From contig NZ_AP023354.1 in assembly GCF_018324685.1 (NCBI RefSeq), forward strand, positions 1,612,001 through 1,676,000: a stretch of 64,000 bases of DNA, given 5' to 3'. Of the stretch, positions 48,438-60,696 are shown piece after piece (the stretch's first letter is position 1; every line of letters begins with the position of its first letter). This DNA comes from Actinocatenispora sera (GTDB lineage Bacteria > Actinomycetota > Actinomycetes > Mycobacteriales > Micromonosporaceae). The position numbers were made by a program, and so were the translations under genes. The notes under the pieces are model-generated. The model ran no database searches, was not told where the DNA came from, and was given only the letters and a program-made list of their open reading frames with translations.

Positions 48438-48514
48438 GGTCAGGTAGCTCAGTTGGTACGAGCGTCCGCCTGAAAAGCGGAAGGTCGGCGGTTCGACCCC
48501 GCCCCTGACCACCA
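48438..48514 (+). tRNA. tRNA-Phe (anticodon GAA), integration site of the AICE
   Basis: A 77-nt tRNA with acceptor GGTCAGG/CCTGACC, anticodon loop CTGAAAA (GAA at 48472-48474), T-arm GGCGG/CCGCC and encoded CCA. Its 3' part from 48464 is identical to the copy at 60505-60570, so the element restored a complete tRNA gene on insertion. Confidence 0.96.
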
Positions 48515-48529
48515 CAGAGGACCAGGCAT
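48464..48529 (+). repeat. attL, 66-bp core of the integrated AICE
   Basis: Identical over 66 bp to 60505-60570. It starts in the anticodon stem of tRNA-Phe and runs past the gene end into the terminator hairpin. This is the left border of the element. Confidence 0.93.
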
Positions 48530-48554
48530 TTCGCCTGGTCCTTCTACTTTTTCG
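48518..48554 (+). terminator. Element-borne terminator of tRNA-Phe
   Basis: 10-bp stem AGGACCAGGC/GCCTGGTCCT (48518-48527, 48533-48542) then a T-rich tail. A second copy, the original chromosomal one, lies at 60559-60583. Confidence 0.8.
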
Positions 48555-48621
48555 GCGATTATCGAACTCTCTTGCGACTGCCCGCGAGTGACCGTGATTC
48601 GCCTTGATCATCTGCCCCTTA

Positions 48622-48639
48622 TCGCACGCGGATCGCACG
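48622..48639 (+). promoter_or_regulatory. 18-bp candidate integrase arm site, left end
   Basis: TCGCACGCGGATCGCACG occurs here and again, same orientation, at 60451-60468. Both copies lie just inside the element, 90-100 bp from the left core and 36 bp from the right core. It also has internal repetition (TCGCACG twice). Probable arm-type site for Int or Xis; inferred. Confidence 0.5.
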
Positions 48640-48688
48640 CGGTCTGTCCATCCCGTCTGCCGTCGGCCCACCCTCTGGGGTAGCGGGG

Positions 48689-48750
48689 CTGTCCTGTCTG
48701 GTGAAGGTGGAGCGCCCAACTGGACGAACGACCTTCGCCAGACAGGACAG
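48689..48750. repeat. 20-bp inverted repeat in the AICE left arm
   Basis: Arms 48689-48708 and 48731-48750 are complementary at 19 of 20 positions, with a 22-nt spacer. It lies in the 48530-49332 segment, which has no convincing gene. It could be a transfer locus (clt-like), a single-strand origin or a terminator; the sequence does not decide. Confidence 0.75.
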
Positions 48751-49332
48751 GTCTGCTACGGCTTCGCCTGGGTCGTCGGCGGGCGGGATGGACGCTCTCT
48801 CGGCAACCACGCATCGACCGGTACTCGCTGGCTCTCCCCGCCCATCCCGGAGCCTGAGCGCCCCGCAGGAGGCATGCTCTCGATCTGTGTGCGGCTCGGG
48901 CCGCGGTGCTCGGGCACGGCCAGGCGGTGAAGGCCGGAATGCTGCATACGGCTCGTCTCGTCCGGCGGACCGTGCCCGGCGGGTCTCGGGGGCAAGATGG
49001 CCCCGGGGTTGGGCCATCGCGGCAGCGCTCGCCCGGAACCACTGCGAACAGCGGCCACGCAGAGGCGAGCGTAAGGCCGTGCCCGACAGCTCGTCCTGGT
49101 CCTGGCGGTGCTTGTCGACGGCGGCGCCGGGTGCGGGCCGGCCTTCCGCCCGCCGAGGCCGCCAGGCCGTAGGCGGGCGGGCCTTCCCGGACCGTGCCCG
49201 GCGCCTGCGCCGCGTCAGCGGCGCCTTGATCCAGTAGAGACTAATTCGGCAGTGCAGCCCAGACGTTCGGGTGGTATCGGACAGGTGGAAAGGCCAGTAT
49301 CCTGGTGAAGCCGAGCTGAGGAGGCGAGACCG

Positions 49333-49545
49333 TTGGCCGTACCACCACCACCACCGCCACCGCTTGGACAACCAAGTGACGGGGTTGTCACGATGCTCTC
49401 GTCCGATCAGTGGCGCGAGATGGCTGGTCGGGAACTTCGGGCGTTGAACCTGAGTTATGACGATCTTGTCTCGCAGCACGCAACCGGACACTTCAGTTCG
49501 ACTGCGGCTCGGAAGCTTTGGTTCTTAATCGGTGGCACACTCTAA
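49333..49545 (+). CDS. Small AICE cargo protein (70 aa), function unknown
   Basis: Not recognised with certainty. After an odd 'VPPPPPPPLGQP' leader it reads 'LSSDQWREMAGRELRALNLSYDDLVSQHATGHFSSTAARKLWFLIGGTL', a compact helical domain. A TTG start at 49333 is preceded by GAGGAGG. The stop lies 14 bases inside the next gene, so the two are translationally coupled and probably act together. An internal ATG at 49393 (MLSSDQW) could be the true start. Possible small partner (antitoxin- or adaptor-like) of the 220-aa protein; this is inference. Confidence 0.65.
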   Translation: MAVPPPPPPPLGQPSDGVVTMLSSDQWREMAGRELRALNLSYDDLVSQHATGHFSSTAARKLWFLIGGTL

Positions 49546-50194
49546 GCTGCAGACGAAGGCGCGCGATTTCGCAGCCGACGCTCAAGCGCTATTGAATCGG
49601 ACAGTCTGCAATAATGTACGAGTGGCCGCCACGGCGGACAACGGTAGTGGATTCGTTGCGGTCGCTACTAACCTGAGTGGGCTGCGATCAACCCGCGTCG
49701 AAGTAATCTCGGGTTCACGCCAGTTCAATGTGTACTTGGAGCTCGAGTGTCAAGTACATCTCGAGTCAGGCACCGACTATCTTACGGTGAATAAGTCGAC
49801 GTTTAGCGTCTACGCTGGCCCGGACGAAGATGACCCGGTGTTCCATTACGACTTTGAGCGTAACAAACAGGGTTACACCGAGGCCCACCTGCAGGTACTC
49901 GGAGAGAATGCCCCAATGACTCAGGTGATGCGGGAATTGTGTAGCAGAAAGCAGAAGCTACTCGGTGACTTGCATTTCCCGGTCGGCGGCCGACGATTTC
50001 GCCCATCGATCGAAGATCTTATAGAGTTTCTAATCGAGGAAGAATTGGCCAAGCCGAAGCTCGGTTGGCGAAACGTCCTCGATCGGAGCCGTGCCAAATT
50101 TCAGGAAATACAACTTCGCGCTGCCATTCGGCAAAACCCAGGCGTCGCACTTTCTGCTCTTGTTGACGATGGATATCACCTGTCGAAGTCTTAA
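49532..50194 (+). CDS. AICE cargo protein (220 aa), function unknown
   Basis: Not assigned to a named family. The N-terminal ~110 residues look beta-rich ('VRVAATADNGSGFVAVATNL', 'FNVYLELECQVHLESG'); then 'VFHYDFERNKQGYTEAHLQV', 'HFPVGGRRFRPSIEDLIEFLIEEEL' and an Arg-rich C-terminus. Base composition is clearly lower in GC than all neighbours and rarer codons such as ATA, TTA and AGA appear, so it was acquired recently. A GTG at 49532 overlaps the preceding gene by 14 bases. The position, at the variable end of an AICE, is where accessory or defence cargo is usually carried. Confidence 0.7.
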   Translation: MAHSKLQTKARDFAADAQALLNRTVCNNVRVAATADNGSGFVAVATNLSGLRSTRVEVISGSRQFNVYLELECQVHLESGTDYLTVNKSTFSVYAGPDEDDPVFHYDFERNKQGYTEAHLQVLGENAPMTQVMRELCSRKQKLLGDLHFPVGGRRFRPSIEDLIEFLIEEELAKPKLGWRNVLDRSRAKFQEIQLRAAIRQNPGVALSALVDDGYHLSKS

Positions 50195-50420: not shown

Positions 50421-51278
50421 GTGACTGCTAAGCCGACGCAGATTGCCGCACGTCGGCAACTCGGAGAGGAACTTCGGCGACTGCGTATGTCCGTCTCACG
50501 AACGGGGCAGCAGGTGGCGGCGGCGCTGGGGTGGCATCAGTCGAAGGTGAGCCGGATCGAGGCGGGAAAGAACTTGATCCGGGTGGAGGACGTGGAGGCG
50601 CTGGTCGGGGTGCTCGACGCTCCGCCGGATGAGGCTCGGCGGTTGTTTGATCTGGCAGCGGTGAACGTTGGGGAGCCGGGGTCCTGGCGGAACTCGTCGC
50701 GGTCGGGACTGACTCGGCGGCAGCGAGACTTCATCGCGCTGGAGGCGTCTGCGGTCGGCATCCTGCACTATCAGCCCGTCTTGGTGCCTGGGTACATGCA
50801 GACGCCGGAGTACGCACGTCGGATCGCCGCGATGGCTGGCGCGTCGGATCTGGATCGGGCGGTGGAGCAGCGGCAGGCTCGTCGGGCGACGTTGGAGTCT
50901 GACTCGGCGCCGAGCTATCGGATCGTGCTGTTGGAGACGGCGCTTCGGTGGCGGCCGGTGCCGATGGAGGCGATGGCCGAGCAGCTCGACCAAGTGGTGA
51001 AGCTCGCGCGACGGTCCAATGTGGACCTACGGGTGGTGTCGTTCGACATCGAACAGGTGGCGTACGTGCAGCACCCGTTCATGGTGTTCGACTTCGCGGG
51101 CGAGATCCACCCGGAAGGACTGGTGGAGACCACCACGCAGGATCTCAAGGTGAAGGATGCGAACTCGCTGGGTTCGCTTCGTCACTACTTTGATCAACTG
51201 TCTTCCTCTGCGCTGGGCAAGGCTGATTCACTCGCGCTTGTCCGATCGGTTGCGGCCTCGTACCGAGACCGCGCATGA
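50421..51278 (+). CDS. XRE-family regulator with DUF5753 domain
   Basis: A 285-aa regulator. The N-terminal HTH (~residues 10-65, 'LRRLRMSVSRTGQQVAAALGWHQSKVSRIEAGK') is followed by DUF5753 ('ALEASAVGILHYQPVLVPGYMQTPEYARRI ... QRQARRATLE'). Such proteins usually work with a DUF397 partner, which is the next gene (4-base overlap). In this element it probably represses itself and the transfer operon through the shared 12-bp motif. A GTG at 50421 is the start. Confidence 0.88.
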   Translation: MTAKPTQIAARRQLGEELRRLRMSVSRTGQQVAAALGWHQSKVSRIEAGKNLIRVEDVEALVGVLDAPPDEARRLFDLAAVNVGEPGSWRNSSRSGLTRRQRDFIALEASAVGILHYQPVLVPGYMQTPEYARRIAAMAGASDLDRAVEQRQARRATLESDSAPSYRIVLLETALRWRPVPMEAMAEQLDQVVKLARRSNVDLRVVSFDIEQVAYVQHPFMVFDFAGEIHPEGLVETTTQDLKVKDANSLGSLRHYFDQLSSSALGKADSLALVRSVAASYRDRA

Positions 51279-51499
51279 GTCCCTGGAGGCACATCGTGCT
51301 CAGCTCACCCGATTTCAGTTCGGCCCGCTGGCGCAAGGGTCCCGGTAGCGGCGACGGTAACTGCGTGGAGGTCGCGCAGGTCCCGGAGGCGGTCGGCGTT
51401 CGGGACAGCAAGGATCGGCAGGGTCCGGTCCTGGCGTTCGCTCCGGCAGCGTGGGAGAGCTTCCTGGGCGACGTCCAGTGCGGGACGTTCGACCTGTAG
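51275..51499 (+). CDS. DUF397 family protein
   Basis: A 74-aa protein with the family pattern 'FSSARWRKGPGSGDGNCVEVAQVPEAVGVRDSKDRQGPVLAFAPAAWESFLGDV'. DUF397 proteins pair with XRE-DUF5753 regulators and can modulate them. The ATG overlaps the regulator stop by 4 bases. The MFS gene follows after about 50 bp. Confidence 0.9.
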   Translation: MSPWRHIVLSSPDFSSARWRKGPGSGDGNCVEVAQVPEAVGVRDSKDRQGPVLAFAPAAWESFLGDVQCGTFDL

Positions 51500-51546: not shown

Positions 51547-52776
51547 ATGACGGCGACCGAACAGGCCAAGGCTCAGCGCACCCGGACCCGGTTGGGTCGC
51601 GGGTTCCGCTTGGTGTGGTCCTCGGCGTCGGTGTCGAGCGTCGGGGACGGCGCGTTCACGGTGGCGGTTCCGCTGCTGGCGGCGTACCTGACCCGTGATC
51701 CGCTCGCGGTGTCGTTGGTGAGTGCGGCGGCGGCGGCGCCGTGGTTCCTCGTCGGGTTCTGGTCCGGCGCGATCGTTGACCGGCTCCCCCGGCGGGCCGT
51801 GATGATCACCGCGGATGTTGTGCGCGCTCTGTCGCTCGTCGCGCTCGTCGGCCTGGCCCTGCCGCATGTCGCCTCGCCGGTGGCACTGGCTGTCGTGGCG
51901 TTCCTGGTGGTGTCGGGCCAATGCTTCTTCGACGCGGCGGCGCAGGCGTTGTTGCCGCAGGTGGTCGGCCGGGACGGGGACACGCTGACCAAGGCCAACG
52001 GTCAGCTCTTCGCCGGGGAGACGGTCGGTAAGACTCTCGTCGGTCCGCCGCTGGGCGGCTACACGTTCGCACTGGCTCCCTGGGCGCCGTTCGCTGTCGA
52101 CGCGGTGTCGTTCGCTGCGTCGGCCGGCTTCCTCGGCGGCGTACGGAAGACTCCGGCCCCGGAGGTCCCGGAGCGGCAGAACCTGCGGAACGCGGTGCGG
52201 GAGGGCTTCGCCTACCTGTTCCGGAGCCGCGAGCTCGTGCTGTTGTCGCTGTGCCTGATGGCCTTCAACGTCGGCTACAACCTGGCGTACGCGACGCTCG
52301 TGCTGTTCGCGAAGGACTCCCTCGGCGTCAGTGACTTCGGCTTCGGCCTGCTCATCGCTGCCTCCGCGATCGGCGCCGTGGTCGCGGGCTGGATCGCTTC
52401 TCCGCTCGTCCGATGGGTCGGTACCCGTGGGGCCGTTGTCGGCGCGGGCGTGGTCCAGGCGGCCGGGTGGGTGGTCATCGCGCTGACCGGGACACCGTGG
52501 CTCGCCTGGGCAGGGTTCGTACTGCTCGGCGCCGGCTCGACGCTCGTCACGGTCGCGGTGGTGTCAGCCCGCCAACAGGTCGTACCGAACCACCTGCTCG
52601 GTCGCGTCGTGTCGGCGTTCCGGCTGATCGGTAACGGCGTCGCCCCCTTGGGCTCCGTCGCCGGTGGGCTGATCGCGAGTGCGTCCGGCTTCCGCGCGCC
52701 GCTGCTGGTGGCTCCTGCGCTGCTGGTCCTGGCCATGGCAGCACTGGGCATTCTGCTCGCCCGAACCTCGAAGTAG
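51547..52776 (+). CDS. MFS transporter carried by the AICE
   Basis: A 409-aa exporter, about 12 helices ('RLVWSSASVSSVGDGAFTVAVPLLAAYL', 'GAIVDRLPRRAVMITADVVRAL'), of the MFS_3/enterobactin- or macrolide-efflux-like group. The ATG at 51547 follows GAGGGG; an upstream in-frame ATG at 51451 lies within the DUF397 gene. It is accessory cargo, perhaps resistance or self-protection; the substrate is unknown. Confidence 0.85.
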   Translation: MTATEQAKAQRTRTRLGRGFRLVWSSASVSSVGDGAFTVAVPLLAAYLTRDPLAVSLVSAAAAAPWFLVGFWSGAIVDRLPRRAVMITADVVRALSLVALVGLALPHVASPVALAVVAFLVVSGQCFFDAAAQALLPQVVGRDGDTLTKANGQLFAGETVGKTLVGPPLGGYTFALAPWAPFAVDAVSFAASAGFLGGVRKTPAPEVPERQNLRNAVREGFAYLFRSRELVLLSLCLMAFNVGYNLAYATLVLFAKDSLGVSDFGFGLLIAASAIGAVVAGWIASPLVRWVGTRGAVVGAGVVQAAGWVVIALTGTPWLAWAGFVLLGAGSTLVTVAVVSARQQVVPNHLLGRVVSAFRLIGNGVAPLGSVAGGLIASASGFRAPLLVAPALLVLAMAALGILLARTSK

Positions 52777-54655: not shown

Positions 54656-54689
54656 GGCCGCCCGTCACGCACATCGCATGCGGGCGGCC
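54656..54689 (+). terminator. Intercistronic hairpin before the transfer gene
   Basis: Perfect 9-bp stem (arms 54656-54664 and 54681-54689) with a 16-nt loop, followed by TTCTTC. It lies 52 bp before the FtsK-like gene, inside what otherwise looks like one operon, so it may attenuate transfer-gene expression. Confidence 0.55.
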
Positions 54690-54740
54690 TTCTTCATGCC
54701 CAAACACGGTCACGCACGGTTAGCGGAGGGGTTGGGGTCA

Positions 54741-56393
54741 ATGGCTACGCGGTTGGTGATGTCGAGCCGTCGCCGGACGGTGGAGGTACGCCGTTCGCTG
54801 GTGGAGGCGCTGCCGTTTTGGGTGCGGTTGCCGGTGTGGTGCGGTGTCGGCGGCTACCGGCTGGTGAAGGCCGCTGTCCAGCACCCTCGCACGACTGCGG
54901 TGACGGCGACGCTGGGAACGGCGGGGGTGCTGGGTGGCCGGTGGGCGCTGGCCGGTGTGGTCCTGGCCCCGGTTGCGGCCGCGGTGGTGTGGCGCATCGC
55001 CTGGCCTGCCTCGTTCAAGCAGCGGGTGACTCCTCGTCTGCTGCGGTGGCAGCGCCGGTGGATCCGGTACGGGCGGCGCTGGAACGGCTGGATGATGCGG
55101 TGTCGGCTCGGGGTGTCCGACCGGGGCGGCGATGTGGTGGTGATCCCGCAGATTCGGCGGGTGGAGGTCACCCCGGCGGCGGATCGGCTGCTGATCGACG
55201 TTCCGGCTGGGTTGACGGTGGACGCGATCCGGCAGCGGTCCGCTGAGCTGGCCAACGCGGCGCGGGCGTTGGACTGCCGGGTGCGGTCGACGGGTTCGCC
55301 GGGCCTGGCGTGGGTGGAGTTCCAGCGTAAGGACGTGTTGGTGGCCACCATTCCGGCGCTGCCGATCCCGCGCGCGGCGGAGGGTGAGGATCTGGTGCCG
55401 CTGGATCTGGCGGCGGTGCCGGTCGGTACCCGCGAGGACGGGACGCCGTGGACGTTGCCGGTGCTGGGGCGGCATGTGCTGGTGGCGGGCCGGTCTCGTG
55501 CGGGGAAGGGCTCGGTGCTGTGGTCGGTGCTGCGCTACCTGGCGCCGGCGATCCGGTGCGGGCTGGTGAAGGTGTCGGGCATTGACCCGAAGGGTGGCAT
55601 GGAACTGTCCATCGGCCGCCCGCTGTTCACCCGGTACGAGGCGGACCAGCTGGACGCCATGGTGGCTTTGCTGGAGGCTGAGGCCGACCACATGGACTGC
55701 GTCGCCTCGGAGCTGGCCGGCAACGTCCGCAAGTTCACGCCCTCGATGGAACACCCGCTGCACCTGGTGGTCGTCGACGAGCTGGCGACGCTGACCGCGT
55801 ACGCGCCGATGGAGATCCGGCGCCGGGCCGAGAACGCCCTGGGGCGGCTGCTGACCAAGGGCGCGGCGGTCGGCTGGGCAGTGCTGGGCCTGGTGCAGGA
55901 GCCGTCGAAGGACATCATCCCGATGCGCGGGCTGTTCACCTACCGGCTCGCGCTGTGTCTGGACACGCCCTCGCAGGTCGACATGGTGTTGGGCGACGGG
56001 ATGCGCGACCTCGGGGCGCTGGCCGATCAGATCTCGCTGTCGACACCGGGCATGGGCTACGCGCTCAGCGAGTTCGAGAAGGAACCCTTCCGCGTCCGGG
56101 CGGCCTACGTCGCCGATGACGAGATCCGGGCCATGGCCGGCGAGTACGCGCCGATCACCACCGACTCCAACGACATCGAAGACATCCCGGCTGCCCCCAT
56201 GGCTGGCAACGGCGACGAGGGCCAGGCGGACAAGACCGAACCTGCTGACGCCCGGCCGGTCGAGCCGGTGGAGGTGGTCGAGCTGGAGGAGTGCCCGCCG
56301 GCTGATGTCACGCCGGTGGTGCCGGACTCGCTGTTAGCCAAGCTGCGCAACCTGCCTGCTGCGGGCGGCTCGGACGGGACGGAGGCGGCGTGA
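54741..56393 (+). CDS. traSA: FtsK/SpoIIIE-like conjugal DNA translocase (TraSA/TraB type)
   Basis: A 550-aa septal-type DNA pump that moves double-stranded DNA between mycelial cells. Two membrane segments lie at about residues 50-90; the motor domain has Walker A GRSRAGKGS (250-258), Walker B 'LHLVVVDELATL' (about 340-350), and an Arg-containing 'SLSTPGMGYALSEFEKEPFRVRAAYV' near the end. A Glu/Pro-rich tail follows. The ATG at 54741 has GGAGGGG upstream. The central transfer gene of the element. Confidence 0.9.
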   Translation: MATRLVMSSRRRTVEVRRSLVEALPFWVRLPVWCGVGGYRLVKAAVQHPRTTAVTATLGTAGVLGGRWALAGVVLAPVAAAVVWRIAWPASFKQRVTPRLLRWQRRWIRYGRRWNGWMMRCRLGVSDRGGDVVVIPQIRRVEVTPAADRLLIDVPAGLTVDAIRQRSAELANAARALDCRVRSTGSPGLAWVEFQRKDVLVATIPALPIPRAAEGEDLVPLDLAAVPVGTREDGTPWTLPVLGRHVLVAGRSRAGKGSVLWSVLRYLAPAIRCGLVKVSGIDPKGGMELSIGRPLFTRYEADQLDAMVALLEAEADHMDCVASELAGNVRKFTPSMEHPLHLVVVDELATLTAYAPMEIRRRAENALGRLLTKGAAVGWAVLGLVQEPSKDIIPMRGLFTYRLALCLDTPSQVDMVLGDGMRDLGALADQISLSTPGMGYALSEFEKEPFRVRAAYVADDEIRAMAGEYAPITTDSNDIEDIPAAPMAGNGDEGQADKTEPADARPVEPVEVVELEECPPADVTPVVPDSLLAKLRNLPAAGGSDGTEAA

Positions 56394-56662: not shown

Positions 56663-57292
56663 ATGGCTGAGGCAAGCAAGACGCAGCGGGTGGAGGATGT
56701 CGCCCGGCTCGGGATCATGGGCGCGATCGGCGTCATGGCCGGCGCGGCGTCGTTCACGCACATGCATGACTGGACGATGCAGGCGCTCCCGCACGGGACG
56801 GCCGACTGGTTCGGGTGGGCGAACGCGGTCGCCTCGGAGCTGATGCCCACGTGTGCGCTGTTGGAGATCCGCCGCAAGCGTCGGGCCGGCGGCTCGATCG
56901 GCTACCCGGTCGCGCTGCTGGTCGCTTCCGGGCTGCTGTCGCTGGGTGCGCAGGTCTCGCAGGCCGGTGACTCGCTGACCTCGAAGGGGCTGGCGGCGCT
57001 GCCGGCGGTGGCGTTCATGCTGCTGGTCAAGCTCGTGTTCTCCGGCCTGCCGAAGTCCACCAACGAGACGAAACCCGTTGTCCCGCAACAGGACTCGGTC
57101 GCTGTTCCGGATCACGCGAAGGTCGAGCATCCGACGGCTCCTGCCTCGTTGGCGCCTGCCGCTCCGGTTGCGGCTCGTCCGGTGTCGTCCACCGTCCCGG
57201 CTGCTCCGGTTGTGCCGGCTGCTCCGGTGGTCCCGTCGGGTCCGGTTGTGCCGGGCCGGGTCAACGGTCGTCCGGTGGTGATCGGCCAATGA
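56663..57292 (+). CDS. DUF2637/Spd-like membrane protein
   Basis: A 209-aa protein with about four membrane helices in the first 130 residues ('LGIMGAIGVMAGAASFTHMHDW', 'WFGWANAVASELMPTCALLEI', 'YPVALLVASGLLSLGAQVS', 'ALPAVAFMLLVKLVF') and a Pro/Val/Ala-rich tail. It resembles the spread proteins that help plasmids move within mycelium. A GTG at 56660 is an alternative start. Its stop overlaps the repSA start by 4 bases. Confidence 0.8.
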   Translation: MAEASKTQRVEDVARLGIMGAIGVMAGAASFTHMHDWTMQALPHGTADWFGWANAVASELMPTCALLEIRRKRRAGGSIGYPVALLVASGLLSLGAQVSQAGDSLTSKGLAALPAVAFMLLVKLVFSGLPKSTNETKPVVPQQDSVAVPDHAKVEHPTAPASLAPAAPVAARPVSSTVPAAPVVPAAPVVPSGPVVPGRVNGRPVVIGQ

Positions 57293-59079
57293 GCACCGAC
57301 CCGATGACACTGCCCGGTCTCGGGCAGGACGAGACTCCCCGCCCCGACTCGCGGGCGGCTCGGATGCTGCAGCCGATCGCGAAGGACGTTGCGGTCGAGC
57401 TGGCGAAGAAGTTCGGGGTGTGCGTCAAGCCGGTCTGGCTGCGCCGTACCAACACGGCGACCGGGGAAACCGAGCTGGTGCCGGTGCCCTGCGGGGCGAC
57501 CTCGGCGGCGAAGTGTGAGCCGTGCGCGGAGGCGAACCGGCGGCTGCGGATGCAGCAGATCCGCGAGGGCTGGCACCTCACCGAAGAACCGGTCACCACC
57601 CCCGATGCCCCGACCGACGAACAGCGCGAGCTGGTGGAGTACCGGGCTGTCCTGGAGTTCGCCCGGACCTCCGTGGTCCTGGCGGCCGAGTGGGACCAGG
57701 TGCGCGAGCTGGACGCGGAGATCGACCGGGTGGATGAACAGATCACCGCGGCCGGTGTCCGCGGCTCGGTGCTGCCTGGCGGCCGCAAGGATGGGACCGA
57801 TGGGCAGGAGTCGGCCCCGGCCCGGAAGCGCTCGACTCGTCGGCGGCAGGACGCACCGGATCTGCCTCGGCTGCCGGTGGCCAACCGGACCATTCCGCAT
57901 CCGCACATCGGCACCGACGGGCGGGAGCACCGGGACTCGGTGTTCCTGACCCTGACTCTGGGCTCGTACGGGCCGATCCACTCCGCGTACCGGCGTCGCG
58001 GTCGAGTGCAGGTGTGTGAGTGCGGCGAGTTGCACAGCCAGCATGACCCCCGCGTCGGGACCCCGGTCGACCCCGACTCGTACGACTACCGGGCGGCGGC
58101 GCTGGACGCGATCCACTTCGCGAAGGTGCTCGACCGGTTCTGGCAGAACCTGCGCCGGGCCGTGGGCTGGAACGTGCAGTACGCGGGGTCGGTGGAGATG
58201 CAAAAGCGGCTGGCCCCTCACGGGCACTTCGCCGTCCGGGGCACACTGGCCCGCAAGCTGGTCAAGCAAGTCGCGGCGGCAACCTACCACCAGGTGTGGT
58301 GGCCCGCGCATGACCGGCTGGTGTACGACCCGGACGGGGCCGTGCCGGTGTGGGACCCGGACGCGAAGACCTACCGGGACCCGGAGACCTCGGCGGCGCT
58401 GCCGACCTGGGATGAGGCGCTGGACGCGCTCGATGAGGACCCGGACGCGGAGCCTGCGCACGTGGTGCGGCTCGGCAGCGTGCACCTGGCCGGGGTGCGG
58501 GGCGGCTCGGAGAGCGCTGAGAAGACCATCCGCTACATCACGAAGTACATCGCGAAGGACATCACCGACGCCGTGGCTCCGGGCTCGCGGGCGCAGGAAG
58601 ACCATCTGGCCCGGCTCGCGGCGGAGCTGCAAACCCTGCCGTGTTCTCCGACGTGCGCGAACTGGCTGCTGTACGGGGTGCAGCCCAAGAACGCCAAGGC
58701 TACGGCGCGGCCGGGACGGTGCAAGGGCAAGGTGCATCAGCGGCGCACCCTCGGCTTCACCGGACGGCGGGTTCTGGTCTCCCGGCAGTGGTCGAACAAG
58801 ACCCTGGCTGATCACCGGGCCGACCGGAAAGCCTGGGTCAAAGCTCTCCTCGCGCTTTCGGCAACCGGCGATGCGACGGCCGGCGAGCACGACCAGGCGC
58901 CCGGCGACCCGCCCCCGTTCGAGTACGAGTTGGCCTCCCGAGACGACCCGGACGTGCCTCCGCCGCATGTGCACTTCCTGCGCAAGATCGCCGAACGGCA
59001 AGCCTGGCGGGCACAACTCGACGAGGCGAAACAACAGGTACAGCAACAGCTTTCGGCAACGCAAACCACTGCGGCATAA
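57289..59079 (+). CDS. repSA: RepSA-like replication initiator (HUH, rolling circle)
   Basis: A 596-aa initiator for autonomous replication of the excised element. Motif 1 FLTLT is at residues 219-223, the HUH-type metal site Pro310-His-Gly-His313-Phe follows, and the nicking Tyr region is 'TIRYITKYIAKD' with Tyr416 and Tyr420. Cys clusters near 68-79 ('CGATSAAKCEPC') and 243-245 could bind zinc. Length and layout match pSAM2 RepSA. It would nick its origin, probably inside or near its own gene. Confidence 0.92.
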   Translation: MSTDPMTLPGLGQDETPRPDSRAARMLQPIAKDVAVELAKKFGVCVKPVWLRRTNTATGETELVPVPCGATSAAKCEPCAEANRRLRMQQIREGWHLTEEPVTTPDAPTDEQRELVEYRAVLEFARTSVVLAAEWDQVRELDAEIDRVDEQITAAGVRGSVLPGGRKDGTDGQESAPARKRSTRRRQDAPDLPRLPVANRTIPHPHIGTDGREHRDSVFLTLTLGSYGPIHSAYRRRGRVQVCECGELHSQHDPRVGTPVDPDSYDYRAAALDAIHFAKVLDRFWQNLRRAVGWNVQYAGSVEMQKRLAPHGHFAVRGTLARKLVKQVAAATYHQVWWPAHDRLVYDPDGAVPVWDPDAKTYRDPETSAALPTWDEALDALDEDPDAEPAHVVRLGSVHLAGVRGGSESAEKTIRYITKYIAKDITDAVAPGSRAQEDHLARLAAELQTLPCSPTCANWLLYGVQPKNAKATARPGRCKGKVHQRRTLGFTGRRVLVSRQWSNKTLADHRADRKAWVKALLALSATGDATAGEHDQAPGDPPPFEYELASRDDPDVPPPHVHFLRKIAERQAWRAQLDEAKQQVQQQLSATQTTAA

Positions 59080-59098: not shown

Positions 59099-59314
59099 GT
59101 GTCCAGCGACGAAGTTCTGTTGAGCGTAGCGCAGGCAGCCGAACGCTTCGGCACAAGCGAGCGGTTCCCCCGCCGGCTGATTGCTGAGCGGCGAATCCGT
59201 TTTGTTCGGCTCGGCCGTCACGTCCGCATCCCCGCGGGCGCGGTGGACGAGTTCATCCAAGAGGGCACAGTCGAGCCGCTGTCGGTGCGGTGGCGTGCGG
59301 GGAAGGTGGCGTGA
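59099..59314 (+). CDS. xis: Excisionase (MerR/AlpA-like HTH)
   Basis: A 71-aa basic DNA-binding protein. 'LLSVAQAAERFGTSERFPRRLIAERRIRFVRLGRHVRIPAGAVDEFIQEG' is the excisionase/DNA-binding family pattern. A GTG at 59099 with GGGAGG upstream. The stop overlaps the int ATG by one base, the usual xis-int coupling. It would direct Int toward excision. Confidence 0.9.
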   Translation: MSSDEVLLSVAQAAERFGTSERFPRRLIAERRIRFVRLGRHVRIPAGAVDEFIQEGTVEPLSVRWRAGKVA

Positions 59315-60444
59315 TGGCGAAGAGGCGCCGTCGATTCGGCTACGTGCGGAAGCTGCCGTCCGGGCGGTTTCAGGCATCGTTCATCGCGCCGGACGGGTCT
59401 CGCCAGTACGCGCCGGAGACCTTCAAGAACCGGACGGAGGCAGACCGTTGGTTGTCCCTGGTGGAAGCGGACATCAGCCGTGGTGTCTGGCTGAATGAGG
59501 GGCTCGGCCGGGAGACATTCGGCAACTACGCAAGGGCTCACCTGCGGGACAACCCGAAGATCGGCCCCCGCTGGCGGGAGACGTGCCTCCGGAACCTCCG
59601 GCTGCACCTGGCCCCGCTTGAGGGGAGAATGTTGTCCGAGCTGACGACTCCCGTTGTCCGCGAGTGGTACGCGACGGCGATGCGGGGGAGCGGCGGGAAG
59701 ACCTCGATCCGCCAGTCCTACCGGTTCCTGCGTGCAGTGCTCTACGCCGCGGTCCGCGATGGTGCGATCGCGAAGAATCCGTGCCAGGTTCCCGGCGCTG
59801 GCGTCGACCGGGCCAAGGAACGGCCGGTAGCGACTCCGGCGCAGGTTGCCGCGCTGGTGGAGGCGATCACTCCGCGGTACCGGGCTGCCGTGATGATCGC
59901 CGCGTGGCTCGGGCTGCGGCGTGGTGAGGTCTGCGGCATGCGGATCTCGGATGTCGACCTGGCGGCCGGCACGATCACGATCCGGAAGAACCGCGTCGAG
60001 CTGTTGGAGTCGGCGGAGGCTTTCGACGACGATCCGAAGACCGATGCGGGGAAGCGGACCGTGGTCGTCCCGCCGCACGTGCTGCCCTTCCTGATCGAGC
60101 ACATGGAGCAGTGGGCCGGCAAGGATCGGGTCTTCGTCGGGCGTACCGGCCAGCCGATGCGTGGCGACGCGATCCGGCAGGCGTTCACCCGGGCTCGCGC
60201 GAAGGTCGGCATGGACAACTTCACCTTCCATGACATGCGCCACACCGGCTCGACGCTGGCTGCCTCGGCCGGCGCGACGCTCGCGGACCTGAAAAAGCGG
60301 CTCGGGCATGCGTCGTCGGCGGCTGCATTGAGGTACCTGCATGCGGTAGACGGCCGGGACCGGGAGATCGCTGCGGCGCTGACCGACCTTGCCGCGCACG
60401 GCGACTCGTCCAAACTGCCTCGCTCGATCGTGATCAAGAGCTGA
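59314..60444 (+). CDS. int: Tyrosine-family site-specific integrase
   Basis: A 376-aa recombinase. An Arg-rich N-terminus and arm-binding domain precede the SAM-like core-binding domain (about 65-165); the catalytic domain shows Arg202 ('LGLRRGE'), Lys242 ('PKTDAGKR'), His306-x-x-Arg309 ('HDMRHTG'), His332 ('LGHAS') and Tyr341 ('LRYLHAV'). All residues are intact. It lies 60 bp from attR and would integrate the element into tRNA-Phe. An upstream in-frame start at 59290 overlaps xis and is unlikely. Confidence 0.95.
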   Translation: MAKRRRRFGYVRKLPSGRFQASFIAPDGSRQYAPETFKNRTEADRWLSLVEADISRGVWLNEGLGRETFGNYARAHLRDNPKIGPRWRETCLRNLRLHLAPLEGRMLSELTTPVVREWYATAMRGSGGKTSIRQSYRFLRAVLYAAVRDGAIAKNPCQVPGAGVDRAKERPVATPAQVAALVEAITPRYRAAVMIAAWLGLRRGEVCGMRISDVDLAAGTITIRKNRVELLESAEAFDDDPKTDAGKRTVVVPPHVLPFLIEHMEQWAGKDRVFVGRTGQPMRGDAIRQAFTRARAKVGMDNFTFHDMRHTGSTLAASAGATLADLKKRLGHASSAAALRYLHAVDGRDREIAAALTDLAAHGDSSKLPRSIVIKS

Positions 60445-60450
60445 GGCTTG

Positions 60451-60468
60451 TCGCACGCGGATCGCACG
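60451..60468 (+). promoter_or_regulatory. 18-bp candidate integrase arm site, right end
   Basis: Second copy of TCGCACGCGGATCGCACG, 7 bases after the int stop and 36 bp before the attR core. See the left copy at 48622-48639. Confidence 0.5.
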
Positions 60469-60504: not shown

Positions 60505-60570
60505 GTCCGCCTGAAAAGCGGAAGGTCGGCGGTTCGACCCCGCCCCTGACCACCACAGAGGACCAGGCAT
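60505..60570 (+). repeat. attR, 66-bp core with partial tRNA-Phe
   Basis: The 3' half of tRNA-Phe (anticodon arm to CCA) and flanking bases, identical to 48464-48529. It lacks the acceptor 5' strand and D-arm, so it is not a tRNA gene. The host's original terminator hairpin follows (60559-60568, 60574-60583). Confidence 0.93.
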
Positions 60571-60696
60571 AACGCCTGGTCCTTTCGCTTTTCGGAGATC
60601 ATCGAAGTCGCTCGTGAGTTCCGACGCTCGCGCGCCAGTGGCGCCGCGATCTGTAGAGAGCACGGCCGTCTCCGCCGGCGCGGCATGAGCGGGTGT

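Follow-up and report, generated by a model that had tools for sequence, protein, structure and literature searches.

A conserved gene pair of an actinobacterial mobile element, probably a toxin–antitoxin module distantly related to TumE–TumA

Introduction

What is encoded by two short, overlapping genes of aberrant base composition that lie just inside one end of a mobile element? The question is posed by a 64-kb stretch of a 7.04-Mb actinobacterial chromosome, referred to here as the window. The initial annotation of this stretch singled out two adjacent genes as the cargo of an AICE and proposed, on the basis of their coupled small-plus-large layout, that they might be an undescribed system resembling toxin–antitoxin or compact defence modules. 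Here the pair is followed from its sequence and carrier to its homologues, its predicted structures and its most distant detectable relatives.

The gene pair and its carrier element

The pair, the tRNA gene, both att copies and the genes for the integrase, the initiator, the transfer protein and the two regulator-type proteins described in this section all lie on the forward strand. The small gene (49333–49545) is an open reading frame of 70 aa starting with TTG, and the large gene (49532–50194), of 220 aa, starts with a GTG codon located inside the small gene. Both frames are present as annotated and the overlap amounts to exactly 14 bases (49532–49545). Similarity to the rest of the family already begins near 49372, whereas the first ATG is reached only at 49393, which makes the TTG start plausible. 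The sequence contains a Shine–Dalgarno-like AGGAGG (49319–49324) 8 nt before this TTG, and inspection of the stretch preceding the GTG disclosed no such motif. Coupled translation is therefore the natural reading. The two genes also overlap in most homologues, in which start codons were picked by rule; overlap lengths depend on that rule, under which the chosen start is the one closest to a point 11 nt ahead of the stop of the small gene. Neither an inverted repeat of operator type nor a promoter-like site was found upstream of the pair, and a comparison by eye of the upstream sequences of 15 homologues revealed no common motif.

At 54.8%, the GC content of the pair is below the 72.0% of the window and the 69.1% of the remaining element. 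Of 6314 sliding windows of 862 bp, 16 equal or fall below this value; the minimum, in the one starting at 49431, overlaps the pair, which bears out the low GC that had drawn attention to these genes. The same bias recurs elsewhere: of 78 homologous loci, 77 have a pair whose GC content is below that of the flanking DNA, and the mean difference is 6.5 points.

The carrier had been described as a mobile element with the pair at its end, and this description is accurate. The element is an AICE of 12 kb inserted in a tRNA-Phe (gaa) gene (48438–48514, ARAGORN), which provides the attachment site. It is bounded by an 88-nt direct repeat, whose attL copy (48464–48551) contains the 3' part of the tRNA gene and whose attR copy (94%) lies at 60505–60592. 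The pair is located just inside attL, and the tyrosine integrase occupies the opposite end (59290–60444; Phage_integrase, E 7.9e-22), preceded by a RepSA replication initiator of the pSAM2 type (57289–59079; E 1.5e-92) and an FtsK/SpoIIIE-type transfer protein (54678–56393; E 6.1e-6, over the curated cut-off). Repeats in a tRNA gene, a tyrosine integrase, an initiator of RepSA type and a transfer protein of FtsK type, the features that define an AICE, are thus all in place.

Domain matches identify an HTH_31-DUF5753 regulator (50421–51278) adjoining the pair and a DUF397 protein (51275–51499) that overlaps this regulator. An MFS efflux-type transporter (51547–52776; MFS_3, E 3.7e-35) is encoded nearby. 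An imperfect inverted repeat (48646–48793), with 73-nt arms that are 74% complementary and separated by a 2-nt gap, lies between attL and the pair and may serve the element as a site of transfer or replication. A 22-nt direct repeat (95%) occurs inside both ends, at 48618–48639, 66 nt after attL, and at 60447–60468, 36 nt before attR; these copies may represent arm sites for the integrase or Xis.

A conserved and co-inherited two-gene module

Searches with curated libraries gave no matches to either protein in Pfam, NCBIfam or PADLOC, in agreement with the earlier remark that neither gene fits a nameable family. Among 67 large and 62 small homologues Pfam yielded no consistent family; Pfam TumE (PF20126) was matched by one of the 67 large proteins, at E 0.066. 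Every annotated copy that was inspected is labelled 'hypothetical protein'.

The large protein is patchily distributed, being found by protein search in 23 of 250 genomes of the window's family and, within the genus, in one of four genomes, the window's own. Where it occurs, it is as a rule accompanied by the small protein. When 396 genomes drawn from the phylum were searched with the large-protein profile A3, 17 of them had matches, 18 in all. Fourteen large-protein matches, in 13 genomes, are strong (>150 bits); the small gene is directly upstream in 13 of these, and the fourteenth begins at base 99 of its contig. The converse search, with a profile of the small protein against the same 396 genomes, produced 20 matches. 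A large gene adjoins each of the 11 that exceed 40 bits and also the weaker ones in G591 and G506; the match in G453 adjoins a large gene of the remote type C discussed below, and the remaining six (21–30 bits) are unpaired.

A wider contig scan, built on alignment A1 and one 10-residue pattern, returned 177 pattern hits in genome_contigs, 111 of which were relatives and 80 of which were kept, and two of three hits were retained in viral_contigs. According to an iterated HMM of the small protein, the small gene lies close upstream on the same strand in 78 of these 82 loci, a count in which L087 contributes a fragment only and some loci are non-independent. The four exceptions comprise L063, with the small gene present and the large gene internally deleted, L075 and L095, which are near contig edges, and L093, where a remnant of the small gene survives. 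The two proteins have also diverged in step: in a mirror-tree comparison of 55 loci their distances correlate with r 0.786, a value reached in none of 2000 permutations (maximum 0.11). A broken large gene next to an intact small gene is observed in six loci (L008, L015, L055, L063, L066 and L086), and a full large gene lacking an intact small gene in L093 and, by our own reading, L087; this excess of broken large genes is near the ratio of about 3:1 predicted by gene lengths alone.

No third gene recurs across 86 loci and 1056 neighbouring open reading frames (own gene caller). The most widespread neighbour cluster, an ABC ATPase, is present in 16 of the 86 loci at scattered positions, and the largest clusters are likewise common gene types at scattered positions. 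From the 1056 frames, 135 nearest neighbours were drawn, one per side within 3 kb and with ten same-species loci excluded; any one Pfam or PADLOC model is matched by four of them at most.

The pair is thus a conserved, co-inherited two-gene module. That homologues with the same layout exist in many genera confirms that the original two-gene observation goes beyond chance. A lack of joint conservation, which would have spoken against the original proposal, is not what the loci show: the two genes travel jointly on the AICE, on prophages and on plasmids. The traits observed, namely a stand-alone two-gene operon, the small gene in first position, co-inheritance and a patchy distribution, are those of type II modules.

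Distribution and mobile carriers

Named members of the family belong to the Actinomycetota, including Actinomycetes and Acidimicrobiia, with the addition of one Chloroflexota MAG (L090); some further members are MAGs without a stated phylum. The large protein of the window groups with Actinoplanes homologues, and its top identity is 48%. Five records are plasmid copies, from Rhodococcus, Curtobacterium and Streptomyces. On a linear plasmid of Streptomyces albus the pair (L031:7702-8618) precedes a type I-E cas operon by about 1 kb. The pair is also present in two MabE1 prophages of M. abscessus, and in the one inspected it lies between the integrase and the lysis genes. The content of this slot varies: prophi102-2 carries the pair (L029:1636-2580) and prophiGD04-1 other genes (L142:1918-3878). 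One assembly of Actinotignum schaalii harbours five divergent copies that are 61–85% identical.

Relatives of the small protein are further encountered in 19 phage records, which represent 14 differently named phages of Mycobacterium and Streptomyces. The weakest is that of Galactica (E 6e-3), and an HMM check of the relatives in Pacc40, Yaboi, Keanu and Smeagol gave 40–46 bits. In Streptomyces phage Keanu the domain occupies residues 257–312 of a longer protein, gp59 (441 aa; L116:1739-3064); Galactica gp59 likewise matches the small protein, weakly. The large protein was detected by tblastn with two queries in two phage records only, both M. abscessus prophages. An HMM search found no large gene within 2.5 kb of the small relative in the four phages checked, a result compatible with a very divergent copy elsewhere.

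Predicted structures and conserved residues

The AlphaFold model of the large protein is confident (mean pLDDT 92.6, pTM 0.89). A 23-residue helix is followed by seven strands (31–36, 41–46, 56–58, 67–77, 84–94, 104–109 and 118–122) and then by further helices at 127–140, 160–169, 179–201 and 203–212. No PDB or viral fold matched this model at E 0.001. The initial annotation had allowed for a known housekeeping family; library searches with both proteins uncovered no curated family, and the structure search no PDB counterpart of the large model. In the model of the small protein (pLDDT 78), three helices are predicted at residues 24–37, 42–51 and 57–67 behind a Pro-rich tail.

Residues conserved in the large protein are F13, R110, H119, H148, P150, G152, R155, E161, D162 and Q194. 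The invariance from G152 to E161 is partly an artefact, as loci L033–L112 were retrieved by means of a pattern that covers these positions; in alignment A1, which was built before the pattern scan, R157 and P158 vary and H148, P150, G152, R155 and E161 are invariant. Two conserved motifs, [RH]-Y-[DE]...H-x-[QH] and H-x-P-x-G-G-x-R...E-D, may form the active site.

A bridge to TumE through remote relatives

Four weak matches of the A3 profile, L119–L122, proved to be a remote form of the large protein, designated type C, each with an open reading frame of 88–91 aa directly upstream. Searches with a profile built from the four recovered additional type C loci and, in the reverse direction, type A/B loci already found by A3. 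Ten type C loci were used (L119–L122, L146–L150 and L157): six have a small open reading frame directly upstream and four have no clear small partner, some of them being at contig edges. The large proteins mostly carry H-[ILV]-P-T-G and their partners mostly G-[IM]-S-G-x-x-F. In a Pfam search of eight type C proteins from four loci, recognition was confined to L119. Its match to Pfam TumE has an E of 9e-5 and 22.8 bits against a cut-off of 23.4, and in the genome search it reached 24.2 bits, over the cut-off. Two type C queries found no match among plasmids.

For comparison, TumE proteins were collected from the phylum to which the Chloroflexota locus L090 belongs. Of 251 genomes searched, 10 have matches, at 17 places, 16 of which were examined. 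The 16 extracted proteins measure 78–163 aa, with starts set by rule. Upstream open reading frames at 10 of the 16 loci provided the TumA-position partners, so named by their position. TumE was not found in any of 121 genomes of the window's own family, and one TumE relative searched against the PDB gave no match.

Comparison by hhalign joined A3 to type C with a probability of 99, and type C (10 sequences) to TumE with a probability of 78 and a score of 38.3, whereas 41 real control families scored no more than 22.1. The direct comparison of A3 with TumE scored 22.0, within the range of real control families (up to 22.6); the maximum among 60 column shuffles per comparison was 17.6. HMMER gave a similar picture. 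With the type C profile one TumE protein scored 25.6 bits (E 5.8e-7); seven of the 16 TumE proteins reached E 1 or better, as did two of 1149 decoys. With the TumE profile, in a database containing the 1149 decoys, the six best non-TumE hits all came from the wider family of the window protein (best E 0.013). The A3 profile ranked TumE below decoys.

The partners tell a parallel, fainter story. The small proteins of types A/B and C align with a hhalign probability of 94. Type C partners and TumA-position proteins score 28.0 against 24.0 for controls, and HMMER assigns E 2e-4 to one protein, the best decoy having 0.069. Types A/B against TumA gave mixed hhalign scores (19.3 vs 16.7; 18.8 vs 19.5) and HMMER values at or below decoy level.

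Measured against the control-family and shuffle scores, the link through type C is significant, whereas the direct one between the window family and TumE is not. The profile comparisons support homology to TumE at the superfamily level through intermediates. As the large protein of the window matches no Pfam family at E 1, it is not filed as a TumE member: it stands outside PF20126 and is most likely a deep relative that would work in a similar manner.

A probable toxin–antitoxin module and its rivals

The family known as DUF6516, or TumE, was described by Durairaj et al. 2023 as a fold in which a seven-stranded antiparallel sheet carries two helices and for which the PDB offers no confident match (PMC10584680). 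According to the same report, TumE genes are predominantly downstream of the partner gene. In E. coli, six pairs from Gammaproteobacteria showed toxicity that the partner neutralized, and one toxin reduced the incorporation of 35S-Met, RNase activity being proposed and unproven (PMC10584680). This was the sole study of DUF6516 in the open-access literature searched, and the window family is not reported there under that name; other names were searched non-exhaustively.

The window pair resembles TumE–TumA in being a two-gene operon with the toxin(-like) gene second, and its large protein in having seven strands, a likeness of strand count in which the window side is an AlphaFold model. The core on the last strands, Y-[DE]...H-x-[QH], may be compared with RYDN...H-x-H in the extracted TumE proteins, and the bridging type C protein of L119 matches the TumE model. 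There are also differences. Unlike TumE, the window protein is unrecognized by PF20126; at 220–250 aa the large proteins of its family are about twice as long as most extracted TumE proteins; and they add C-terminal helices and a motif, H-x-P-x-G-G-x-R...E-D, that is absent from the 16 TumE sequences. The partner is a short helical protein weakly linked to TumA-position proteins, and almost every member whose phylum is stated belongs to the Actinomycetota, the one exception being the Chloroflexota MAG.

Type II toxin–antitoxin modules such as RelBE and MazEF have the small gene first, overlapping genes, locations on mobile elements and no third gene. All these properties are shared by the window pair, but its proteins, unlike those of the RelBE/MazEF type, match no Pfam, NCBIfam or PADLOC family. 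A polymorphic toxin–immunity pair was considered and rejected because the large protein is short compared with the PT-Imm toxins of M. abscessus, which are described as proteins of about 50 kDa with N-terminal WXG-100 motifs (PMC8092301).

On this evidence we consider it probable that the pair is a type II-like toxin–antitoxin module belonging to a deep, mainly actinobacterial branch related to TumE–TumA, with the large protein as toxin and the small one as antitoxin. The claim of toxin–antitoxin-like, coupled cargo on a mobile element gains support from co-conservation, patchiness, the low GC of nearly all homologous pairs and the distant link to TumE. The label 'undescribed system' survives in part: no curated family covers the pair, but it seems to represent a new, deeply diverging branch within a kind already known, TumE–TumA. 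We infer the following scheme. The 70-aa upstream helical protein would be made first and, through translational coupling, in excess, because the start codon of the toxin lies inside the antitoxin gene and has no ribosome site of its own; it would bind the downstream 220-aa toxin, whose modelled seven-stranded sheet is flanked by helices, and neutralize it. If the labile antitoxin were lost or inactivated, the toxin would be freed and, by analogy with TumE, would block protein synthesis, perhaps as an RNase. Such release would stabilize the AICE, abort phage infection, or both.

Each of the other explanations accounts for part of these data. That the pair is a toxin–antitoxin module unrelated by descent to TumE, with gene order, seven strands and the Y-D...H motif due to convergence or chance, would fit the direct comparison, which remains at control level, and the position of the L119 hit so close to the Pfam cut-off. 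Such a coincidence is improbable, as type C connects both sides above the shuffled, reversed, decoy and real-family controls. A non-classical two-gene anti-phage module of the abortive infection kind, with the small protein serving as sensor or activator instead of inhibitor and the large one becoming active only once a phage infects, draws on several contexts: the plasmid copy about 1 kb before the cas operon, the integrase-side slot in two M. abscessus prophages, the phage relatives of the small protein with no large gene detected, and, by our own gene calls, defence-like PADLOC models among the 135 nearest neighbours (mad8 four times, mad3 and IetA twice each, and RmrA, DpdF, AbiEi and PsyrT once each). 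These neighbour counts come without a control set and hence no enrichment in defence genes is claimed; moreover, no neighbour is recurrent and the TumE link favours a toxin with its antitoxin, and we therefore judge this explanation unlikely. A non-toxic regulatory or maintenance pair of mobile elements, such as a modulator of transfer or excision, might be expected at an att end beside the HTH_31-DUF5753 and DUF397 regulators and on plasmids and prophages. Yet no mobile-element neighbour recurs, Phage_integrase is found in two of the 135 nearest neighbours, and integrase clusters appear in about five loci each at scattered distances, which makes this option very improbable.

A bolder extension of the toxin–antitoxin interpretation concerns the phage genes. 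Antitoxin mimics of phage origin are known, as exemplified by AdfB, which acts against DarT (PMC11481870), and the phage relatives of the small protein may perhaps play an analogous part. The resemblance lies in a phage carrying a lone protein able to stand in for the antitoxin; in contrast, AdfB is described as sharing little identity with DarG (PMC11481870), whereas the phage proteins considered here are sequence relatives of the predicted antitoxin. The pair might then constitute a large unrecognized TumE-like branch devoted to anti-phage defence in Actinomycetota, to which actinophages respond with lone antitoxin copies of their own (Pacc40 gp94, Smeagol gp5, Yaboi gp199 and the domain in Keanu gp59). 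We regard this scenario as conceivable but doubtful.

Concluding remarks

Were that scenario true, it would amount to a direct arms race between host and virus over one small helical protein. If the toxin–antitoxin reading of the pair is correct, the toxin superfamily published in 2023 would gain a sizeable branch, found in Actinomycetes and Acidimicrobiia among others. This branch would bring with it a set of conserved residues as a candidate active site and a prediction for host–phage biology, namely that phages carry antitoxins of this kind.
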